From the NCBI GenBank assembly GCA_902789245.1, contig CADAND010000013.1, positions 1 through 47,938 on the forward strand: a DNA stretch of 47,938 bases. Reading direction: 5' to 3'. Shown one piece after another: positions 39,848 to 42,115 of the stretch. Position numbers and translations under genes: made by a program. This stretch comes from an uncultured Bacteroidia bacterium. Its GTDB lineage: Bacteria; Bacteroidota; Bacteroidia; Bacteroidales; UBA932. The number at the start of each line of letters is the position of its first letter. Position 1 is the first letter of the stretch. The notes under the pieces were generated by a model. The model saw only the letters and a program-made list of their open reading frames with translations. It made no database searches and was not told where the DNA came from.

Positions 39848-39922
39848 GCTGGGTTCGTATAACGGTTAGTACTCGAGATTCTCAATCTCGCAATAGGAGT
39901 TCGATTCTCCTACCCAGTACCA
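39848..39922 (+). tRNA. tRNA-Glu (anticodon CTC)
   Basis: All four stems fold. The acceptor arm is GCTGGGT with ACCCAGT, giving a G1-U72 wobble. The D stem is GTAT with GTAC (G-C, T-A, A-T, T-G). The anticodon stem is CGAGA/TCTCG with loop TTCTCAA, so the anticodon is CTC, reading GAG. The T stem AGGAG/CTCCT has loop TTCGATT. Discriminator A (39919) and an encoded CCA (39920-39922) follow. Confidence 0.95.
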
Positions 39923-39957: not shown

Positions 39958-41577
39958 TCAGTCGATGGGATCGACATCGGGGTAGGTGCCCCGGGCGAGG
40001 GTGTCGAGGAGGGCGGCCTTGCGGGCGGCGAGCTCGCGGTCGCGCGAGAGGAAGTGGCGTGCGAGCACCTCGCCGCTTCCCTGGCGTCGCACTTCGACGA
40101 GCCGCGTGTAGGGTGGGAAGCCGAACTGGCGTCGCTCCTCAAGTAGTTCGTCGGGGCCGCGCGAGCCGTCGAAACGGGCGGGTACGGCCGTCTGGACGAT
40201 GACGCGCGGGGCGAACTGTGCCAGCGTGCCGAGCAGCTGCGCCGCGCGCTCGTCGGCGCGGAAATCGTCGCGCGAGACCAGGGCGTCGGCCTGCAGCACG
40301 GCGAGCAGCGCAACGTCCGGTGCACCCTCGCGCTTCAGCGAGTTAAGGGTGCTGACGCGGATGTCCCGTCCGGGAAAGAGCGCGGCGATCTCTTCCTGCA
40401 GCGGCTCGGGCTTCTCCCAGCCGCGGATCAGCAGCACCGGAGCGTCGGTCTGGCGGACCGCCTCGATCAGTTTTCGGGAGAAGGTGCCGACGAGGCCGTT
40501 CTTGCGGCGCTCGGCGGCGAGGTCGATGACTTCGGCCGGGGATTCGCCGGACGGGCCGGCGAATGGGGAAGGGGTGCCGGCGAGGGCGTATTTCCCCAGC
40601 TTGACATTGAGCAGCGTCTCCAGCGAGGGGACGGCGGCGCCGAGCAGGACGCGGGCGCCGTGGATGCCCGCTAGGGCGATGGCGGCGTCGCGGCCGTGAT
40701 AGCGCGGTGCCGGATCGGCCTGTTTGTAGGCCGGATCCTGCTCCTCGTCCACGACGACGAGACCCAGCGAGCGGAAGGGGAGGAAGAGCGCGGAGCGCGT
40801 GCCGAGGATGAGGGTGGGCGCGCCGCGGCGCAGACGCTCGGCGGCGGCGCGGCGCTGCACCGGCGTCCGGCCGGAGTGGAAAAGCTGCAGCAGCGAGCCG
40901 AATTCAGGCGCGAAGAGCGCCTCCAGGCGGTCGCAGAAAGCGATTTCTGGCGTCAGGACCAGGACCTGGCGTCCGGCGGAGAGGGCTTCCCGCAGCGCAG
41001 GCAGATAATCCTCCCGTCGCGTTGCGGCCGTCAATACCTGCGGTTTGCCGGATTCTTCGCTTCGCTCAGAAAGACATGTACGGTCATTCCGGGCCTGCTC
41101 CGGAATCCCGTACCCTTCAATTTCCTTCGCCAGCGCATCCCGTTCGGAGCTCAGCCGCGCCAGGACGCGCTCGCTGTGCCGACCCGCAAGCTGCGCCTCC
41201 TTCTTCGCGAGCCGCTCGCGCAGCCGCGCCAAGATGTCGGCAGCCGTCTGCTCGCTGCGCTGCTTGAGCAGTGGATACGCCGCCTTGTACACCTCTCCCA
41301 GCGTGCAGAGATAGTATCCTGCGAGAAACTCCCAGAAGCGAAGCTCCGCCGCCGTGACGGCAGGCAGTTCGTCCTGCACGGCTACGATGTCCTGGATGCG
41401 CTCCGGCGGCAGGTCAGGGCGCGCGAGCACCTGCCAGACCACACCGTCGTAGCGGTGAGCTCCGAGCTCGACGCAGACACGCCGCCCGGGCTCCAGCGGG
41501 ACGGGAGAACTGTAGGTGGGGATCCACCGGAGTCTGACCGGCAGGAGAACCTGGATGTATGTCCGTGCTGCCGTCAT
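39958..41577 (-). CDS. priA: Degenerate PriA-like protein (primosomal protein N')
   Basis: The 539-residue protein aligns by eye along the length of PriA (about 730-820 residues). It has the N-terminal DNA-binding domain (YIQVLLPVRLRW, VCVELGAHRYDGVVW), then ALSAGRQVLVLTPEI, GTRSALFLPFRSLGLVVVDE and GAAVPSLETL. The Walker A motif (usually GVTGSGKT) is replaced by AATRRED with no lysine, motif II DEEH is DEEQ, the eight zinc cysteines and their domain are absent, and QVAGRAGR is lost. Residues about 155-178 are translated repeat DNA. It is probably not an ATP-driven helicase. The start at 41577 lies 13 bases after the msrA stop; an ATG at 41631 overlaps msrA. Confidence 0.8.
   Translation of the reverse strand: MTAARTYIQVLLPVRLRWIPTYSSPVPLEPGRRVCVELGAHRYDGVVWQVLARPDLPPERIQDIVAVQDELPAVTAAELRFWEFLAGYYLCTLGEVYKAAYPLLKQRSEQTAADILARLRERLAKKEAQLAGRHSERVLARLSSERDALAKEIEGYGIPEQARNDRTCLSERSEESGKPQVLTAATRREDYLPALREALSAGRQVLVLTPEIAFCDRLEALFAPEFGSLLQLFHSGRTPVQRRAAAERLRRGAPTLILGTRSALFLPFRSLGLVVVDEEQDPAYKQADPAPRYHGRDAAIALAGIHGARVLLGAAVPSLETLLNVKLGKYALAGTPSPFAGPSGESPAEVIDLAAERRKNGLVGTFSRKLIEAVRQTDAPVLLIRGWEKPEPLQEEIAALFPGRDIRVSTLNSLKREGAPDVALLAVLQADALVSRDDFRADERAAQLLGTLAQFAPRVIVQTAVPARFDGSRGPDELLEERRQFGFPPYTRLVEVRRQGSGEVLARHFLSRDRELAARKAALLDTLARGTYPDVDPID
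41044..41112. repeat. REP-like units inside the PriA-like gene
   Basis: Two units of the GTCAT...ATCT family lie here: GTCATTCCGGG...CCGGAAT at the right, and a CTTTCTGAGCGAAGCGAAG type (minus strand) at the left. They are translated as GIPEQARNDRTCLSERSEES, just upstream of where motif I should be. Confidence 0.75.
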
Positions 41578-41590
41578 GTCCGGAAGGGGA

Positions 41591-42115
41591 TTAATCGGTG
41601 TCGCCGGCTGCTTCGTTGGCGGTGCGGGCAAACTCCATCAGGGCCGGCGAAATGTGGCAGTAGCCCTGCGGGTTCTTGTCCAGGTAGTCCTGGTGCTCCT
41701 CCTCGGCCCGGTAGAAATTCTTGAGCGGCTTGACTTCCACGACCAGCGGCGCCTTGAGCTCGCCGGAGACGCGGTCGTAGATCCGCTGGATGGCGGGCAG
41801 GTCGGCAGGGTCGGTATAGTAGATGCCGGTGCGGTAGCGGGTGCCTTCGTCCCCGCCCTGCTTGTTGAGGCTGGTGGGGTCGATGGCCTTGAAATAGACC
41901 TGGATCAGGCGGTCCAGACCGAGCACGTCGGGGTCATAGACCACATGCACGGTCTCTGCGTAGCCGGTCCGGTCCGTATAGACCTCCCGGTAGGTGGGAT
42001 GCGAAATATTGCCGTTGGCGTAGCCGGTCTCAGTCTTGACGATGCCTCGGACGTGCTTGAGGTAGTGCTCGGCGCCCCAGAAGCAGCCGGCTGCCAGATA
42101 AATCTCTTTTGTCAT
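41591..42115 (-). CDS. msrA: Peptide methionine sulfoxide reductase A
   Basis: The 174-residue enzyme reduces methionine-S-sulfoxide in proteins. The active-site motif is GCFWGAEHYL (catalytic Cys near residue 11), with TGYANG, HPTYREVYT, EVYFKAIDP-type and GTRYRTGIYY segments typical of MsrA. It has no signal peptide, so it is cytoplasmic. TAATTTTG on the minus strand (42120-42127) ends four bases before the ATG, suggesting a leaderless mRNA. The PriA-like gene follows after 13 bases, probably on the same transcript. Confidence 0.96.
   Translation of the reverse strand: MTKEIYLAAGCFWGAEHYLKHVRGIVKTETGYANGNISHPTYREVYTDRTGYAETVHVVYDPDVLGLDRLIQVYFKAIDPTSLNKQGGDEGTRYRTGIYYTDPADLPAIQRIYDRVSGELKAPLVVEVKPLKNFYRAEEEHQDYLDKNPQGYCHISPALMEFARTANEAAGDTD

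Follow-up and report, generated by a model that had tools for sequence, protein, structure and literature searches.

Identity of the gene

The window analysed here, a stretch of 47,938 nucleotides from an uncultured Bacteroidia bacterium (Bacteroidales, UBA932; positions 1 to 47,938 of contig CADAND010000013.1, assembly GCA_902789245.1), contains a reduced form of the replication-restart gene priA, in an open reading frame on the minus strand at 39958-41577. The frame runs for 539 codons from an ATG, confirming the length reported in a first-pass annotation that was made from the letters alone and gave no strand; an alternative TTG start at 41631 would extend it to 39958-41631 (557 amino acids). 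That annotation described a protein keeping PriA order from its N-terminal DNA-binding domain onwards, and we observed the same order. The PriA 3'-DNA-binding domain PF17764 (41272..41553; E 9.7e-19, 67.5 bits against a cut-off of 22.7) is the sole Pfam domain above cut-off and is followed, on the same minus strand, by a helical linker (41116..41271, approximate boundaries), with two long helices predicted at the typical winged-helix place, and by two RecA-like lobes in the PriA arrangement. Two stretches matching the priA profile TIGR00595 mark the first lobe (40447..41019) and the second lobe with the start of the C-terminal domain (40039..40320), both with approximate boundaries; the score of 166.3 bits is below the curated cut-off of 230.35.

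The window protein reached up to 200 bits against ordinary PriA models and up to 60 bits against those of PRK14873, the actinobacterial PriA family, and thus lies outside that lineage. The actinobacterial forms resemble it as PriA-lineage proteins thought to be without helicase function, their helicase motifs being reported absent in database annotation, and they keep the zinc ligands; a literature search on actinobacterial PriA without helicase motifs found nothing. The solved structures closest by sequence comparison are all PriA (4nl4, 6dgd, 6dcr, 9zbu and 8fak), and PriA structures are also the best matches of the AlphaFold model in the VIA-align structure lists, which are informative for the listed families only. 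The gene is single copy and its tree tracks the species tree, as is expected of a PriA orthologue, although the PriA and ribosomal trees conflict inside one clade of reduced forms (clade B, over G005) and over G148. PriA ancestry combined with loss of the P-loop lysine defines a pseudohelicase at the level of sequence, and both were found here.

Motifs lost and kept

Where full-form relatives carry (H/D)GVTGSGKTEIY, the window protein reads TAATRREDY, so that the Walker A motif GxxGxGK[TS] is lost. In the second-lobe stretch motif VI is gone as well, QFAP standing in place of GRSGR and the ATP-sensing GRxGR arginine with it, and the cysteine-rich region is absent, leaving no zinc cysteines compared with 8-9 in full relatives. 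The winged-helix segment, a loss that the first-pass annotation does not mention, has also disappeared, the linker measuring 76 amino acids against 201 in G056. The lobes themselves retain KQ..PAPRYH (first) and DFRADE (second). The losses of the P-loop, the zinc cysteines and the arginine motif had all been noted from the sequence beforehand, together with a change of motif II from DEEH to DEEQ. This last change is indeed present, but its reading as a sign of inactivity does not stand: DEEQ coexists with GKT, four CxxC pairs and GRxGR in three Acidobacteriota proteins (L223, L228 and L233) and one from Chloroflexota (L234). As it occurs in motif-intact PriAs, DEEQ alone is no mark of inactivation, and we dropped it as evidence. 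GKT and DEEQ also occur together in the PriA of a Leptospirillum (L231).

A comparison of 63 reduced with 23 full-form proteins (the latter including G056, from another family) showed the cysteine-rich region to be deleted in all 63, at the same core columns. Their P-loop is shortened, and the lysine column holds arginine in 87% of the 63 and, in a wider alignment, arginine in 61 of 82 and lysine in 17, figures that vary with how the shortened loop is aligned. Among 112 assessable proteins the number of zinc cysteines is bimodal, either 0 (81 proteins) or 8-9 (31), with none in between, and the motif IV to V span covers 6-61 residues in zinc-less proteins versus 102-160 in zinc-bearing ones. 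Two candidates were withdrawn from the zinc-less class: in G320 a contig end cuts the protein before the cysteine-rich region, and in L230 a run of N covers it. Many residues of the 3'-binding domain are invariant or nearly so in the reduced set, as are KQ..P....R after motif II, DFR.DE and ER....PP..R, and the C-terminal [DN]xDP signature is kept in 79 of the 81 reduced proteins (G331 differs and G371 has Ns).

Copy number and distribution

A search of the organism's own genome (2.28 Mb in 28 contigs, 95.44% complete) for a second full-length priA, as the first-pass annotation had advised, revealed a single PriA place at the protein level. TIGR00595 matched the two stretches of the window gene and gave six weak matches in three other genes, which are Mfd, UvrB and RecG; a second intact priA in this genome is thus rejected. 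The possibility that the reduced form is an assembly or annotation artefact, or that an intact copy hides in the unassembled 4-5% of the genome, draws on the draft state of the assembly but seems very remote to us. Dozens of separate metagenome-assembled genomes (MAGs) contain this form, and a second copy would have to have been overlooked in nearly all of them. Two drafts do have more than one PriA-type match, G256 and G311, but with contamination of 7% and 4% they are probably mixtures. Since sister species carry the same losses, the two objections that had been raised in advance, an assembly error and a decaying duplicate, are both rejected.

To describe the spread of the reduced form we used a first sample of 36 species of the genus (6 without a match) and then 400 genomes of the genus, drawn evenly. 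In the first sample uncut PriA frames measured 492-841 amino acids, whereas those of other Bacteroidales families are mostly 770-860 (one of 682). Among the 400 genomes, 349 had a TIGR00595 match at 1e-15 or better, 205 of them over the cut-off, the 3'-binding domain was found in 346, and the TIGR00595 scores were bimodal. Restricting the analysis to 150 genomes of high quality (completeness of 90% or more, contamination of 5% or less) gave a PriA match in 142, which the score divides into 54 reduced and 88 full-form genomes; the split was checked in sequence for 29 and 17 of these, respectively, and some of the 25 "reduced" genomes classed by score could be full forms truncated at contig ends. 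Genomes with intermediate scores (G074, G166, G365 and G366) were classed as full-form on the basis of retained zinc cysteines, the protein of G166 being a contig-edge fragment. In G366 the zinc-bearing PriA (L087) is split over two overlapping frames, which may be a real frameshift or an assembly error. The named near relatives are MAGs, and five of the 15 titles of near loci mention rumen or omasum, of goat, yak or roe deer, while another mentions red deer. Across the 142 genomes, those with reduced PriA had a median size of 2.2 Mb versus 2.5 Mb for the full forms, a difference uncorrected for shared ancestry.

Origins, order of loss and constraint

In a tree of seven ribosomal proteins from 60 genomes, reduced PriA falls into two separate groups, clade A (ultrafast bootstrap 88) and clade B (99). 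Clade B sits inside full-form lineages, and the full-form G005 is nested within it, though with low support (60). The PriA tree recovered the same two reduced groups, with G005 outside clade B. A second ribosomal tree, of 80 genomes, again nested G005 in clade B, where branches were very short, and gave G148 a near-basal position in the genus (support 9). A single origin followed by spread was rejected by the approximately unbiased (AU) test, with p = 1e-40 for the ribosomal proteins and p = 0.006 for PriA, although, since fast searching was used to build the constrained trees, the likelihood gaps are upper estimates and much of the ribosomal gap may be inflated. As both trees place reduced PriA twice and a single origin is rejected, two origins are the minimum within the genus. 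The window gene itself is inherited vertically. Exchange or additional losses within clade B are possible, and the PriA tree makes gene transfer between clades A and B unlikely.

Seven of the 81 zinc-less proteins retain a GK[TS] P-loop (G078, G148, G164, G197, G241, G294 and G387), and in two of these, G148 and G197, motif VI is likewise recognisable by pattern. In the PriA tree G148 and G197 branch first in clade A, the other 55 members having lost both motifs (Shimodaira-Hasegawa-like approximate likelihood ratio support 68). In clade B (24 proteins) motif VI is lost throughout by pattern and the P-loop in several places. The early branching of P-loop-bearing, zinc-less proteins in clade A and the scattered P-loop losses in clade B make it most likely that the zinc domain was lost first and that the P-loop eroded later. 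In a sister genus, one protein (L159, genome G600) has a winged-helix linker of only 45 amino acids although its motor motifs and cysteines are intact.

The first-pass annotation had held that the gene is not a simple pseudogene and had asked whether its losses are shared by sister species. An alignment of orthologues revealed that they are, in open frames and under purifying selection. Nei-Gojobori ratios of nonsynonymous to synonymous substitution (dN/dS) were 0.12-0.32 for pairs of reduced forms (median 0.16; 19 of 21 pairs scorable) and 0.08-0.24 for full-form pairs (median 0.10; 4 of 9), the unscored pairs being too saturated and some pairs sharing a species. Furthermore, dN was lower than dS in every region where both could be computed. 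Ratios well under 1 disfavour pseudogene status. A subtler version would have restart no longer needing PriA and the gene decaying slowly, under weak constraint, towards loss. This would account for the gradual decrease in the length of uncut frames within the genus, from 841 down to 492 amino acids, for dN/dS above that of the full forms, for the one broken frame (in G366, though that PriA bears zinc cysteines) and for the 8 of 150 high-quality genomes without a TIGR00595 match, although contig gaps may explain these absences. We nevertheless regard it as improbable, given that every scored pair is well under 1, that many columns are invariant across the 63 reduced proteins, that [DN]xDP is so widely kept, and that the clade of 55 lacking both P-loop and motif VI persists across many species. 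A single copy, common losses, open frames and purifying selection together argue that a structural or fork-binding protein without helicase activity, as first suggested from the window alone, is the best reading of the sequence data.

Loss of motor motifs in other lineages

Loss of the P-loop is not restricted to this genus. In another Bacteroidales family with two genera, here f83, both the P-loop and motif VI are lost in all 27 aligned PriAs (loci L160, L166, L167, L171 and L239-L264). As in the window protein, then, the motor motifs have gone, but all 27 f83 proteins keep 8-9 zinc cysteines, and their linker after the 3'-binding domain is longer (123-207 amino acids in four measured). On these sequence features f83 is an independent route to P-loop loss. 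In all 32 f83 genomes the TIGR00595 match starts at profile position 5 to 69, past the start of the P-loop. The TIGR00595 cut-off cannot be used as a clean detector of the motor, because 31 of the 32 f83 genomes pass it and 27 of the proteins, when aligned, have no P-loop.

This affects how our wider surveys are to be read. Across the phylum 294 of 296 genomes were over the cut-off (293 at E 2.1e-143 or better), and across the order 285 of 295, with f83 standing out; weak scores include G424, G430, G602, G626, G684, G685, G517, G664 and G953. As f83 passes without a P-loop, these figures indicate that strong reduction is rare and not that the motifs are intact in each genome. Outside the phylum, a Candidatus Omnitrophota MAG encodes an open PriA of 617 amino acids (L232:2584-4434, plus strand) with four CxxC pairs and DEEQ and with neither GKT nor GRxGR, which is perhaps a further pseudohelicase.

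A proposed fork platform without a motor

We believe that the window protein is probably the only PriA of its species and a pseudohelicase, serving as an ATP-independent platform at forks for the reloading of DnaB, probably via DciA. Such a protein would recognise an abandoned fork through its 3'-binding domain, lobes and C-terminal domain and would not itself unwind the lagging strand; it would have no ATPase activity, and fork binding and partner loading would be its remaining roles. That a gene with these losses is still maintained by selection in many related gut bacteria suggests that reduced PriA marks broken forks rather than unwinding DNA. Of 30 genomes searched for DciA, the likely loader, 29 gave a match, the exception (G152) being a full-form genome; a study in Caulobacter indicates that DciA may act with PriA (PMC9825169).

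What the missing region does in E. coli helps to specify this proposal. There the cysteine-rich region provides the wedge for unwinding as well as the dock for PriB, and it joins lobe 2 and the C-terminal domain in forming a lagging-strand pore. When a fork is bound it turns by about 80 degrees, and the DnaT site, which lies on those same two domains, is exposed (PMC10175261, PMC13377028). Without it, a pore and wedge of the E. coli type could not form, and the partner face on lobe 2 and the C-terminal domain would be permanently exposed, since in E. coli the region covers the partner site until the fork is bound. Clearing of a duplex lagging strand would be left to another helicase, such as the RecG present in this genome, or skipped, and RecG could also take over the remaining fork remodelling. 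With the wedge lost first, an ATPase would have become useless, and this might explain why the P-loop eroded afterwards.

Helicase-dead PriA is already known, and the loss of the zinc domain is the new part. The closest known case, the PriA of Deinococcus radiodurans, is a pseudohelicase (Lopper et al. 2015, PMC4504706) in which the P-loop lysine is lost, motif II is changed and the PriA body is kept, with a presumed use in restart without unwinding. The replacement of lysine by arginine reported there for Deinococcus-Thermus is also the commonest in the reduced column (PMC4504706). The Deinococcus trait differs in being described as phylum-wide, whereas the reduced form is variable within a single genus that also has full-form sisters and intermediates. 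The reduced proteins moreover have a shortened P-loop and have lost the whole cysteine-rich region, the latter perhaps a further difference. In E. coli, K230 mutants of PriA without ATPase still assemble primosomes, and cells with an ATPase-dead PriA are viable (PMC4504706). Both these mutants and the winged-helix-deleted PriA of solved structure 6dcr retain the cysteine-rich region, unlike the window protein. In the portions of the literature covered by our search we found neither a PriA that lacks the cysteine-rich region nor a pseudohelicase PriA from Bacteroidota, nor any genus with repeated losses of this kind.

Several points weigh against a fork platform. According to a review, E. coli PriA cannot assemble a primosome or contact its partners without the zinc fingers (PMC7290993), and PriA variants altered at the interface between the cysteine-rich region and PriB load no DnaB (PMC10175261), so that the usual mode of DnaB loading might be closed to a zinc-less PriA. 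The AlphaFold model is moderately confident and its underlying alignment shallow (12 sequences), with Mfd following close behind the PriA chains in structural match (Z 15.8 over 260 aligned residues). Reduced PriA also evolves somewhat faster than the full forms, which fits relaxed constraint.

Recruitment to a different task, for instance as a regulator or as scaffold of another DNA repair complex, with restart proceeding by another pathway, has in its favour that the deleted region is the best known primosome surface, being both the PriB dock and part of the lagging-strand pore (PMC10175261). The residues that stay invariant, however, are those of the 3'-binding domain, the lobes and the C-terminal body of PriA, and the sole neighbouring gene examined is confined to one subclade; we thus consider recruitment unlikely and retain the ATP-independent fork platform as the preferred explanation. 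A wider reading, which we offer as a conjecture with a reasonable though less than even chance of being right, is that the PriA motor was lost at least three times in one order by two routes, apparently zinc domain first in the window genus and P-loop without zinc loss in f83, and that the product is an ungated, ATP-free platform whose open partner face feeds DnaB through DciA.

If this conjecture is right, helicase activity and the zinc gate would be dispensable for restart in DciA-type bacteria. The genus is a natural experiment, with close species carrying full, zinc-less but P-loop-positive, and fully reduced PriA, in which to ask which parts of PriA restart needs and whether having DciA as loader makes unwinding and the cysteine-rich gate unnecessary.

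Neighbouring genes and a linker insertion

Directly upstream of priA on the same strand lies a gene that we take from its sequence to be msrA (41591..42115, minus strand), and the priA ATG is 13 bases past its stop. Downstream, a convergent tRNA-Glu(CTC) occupies 39848..39922 on the plus strand. In the flanking DNA msrA adjoins priA at 15 of 81 reduced loci (after removal of G320 from an initial 82) and at none of 31 others, and its presence is thus a local feature of a subclade. An apparent internal stop in the priA of G008 was rejected, as the TAA belongs to the upstream msrA.

Within the window gene, a 72-base, in-frame, repeat-like stretch at 41044..41115 (minus strand) encodes the peptide ...RNDRTCLSERSEESG... 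just before the lost P-loop. The PriA linkers of the window species, G346, G331 and G143 contain a SERSEESG-like peptide in frame, and G132 perhaps has one in a different frame; we presume it to be the product of an interspersed repeat. The insertion is absent from other close relatives and represents a repeated in-frame insertion into a core gene.
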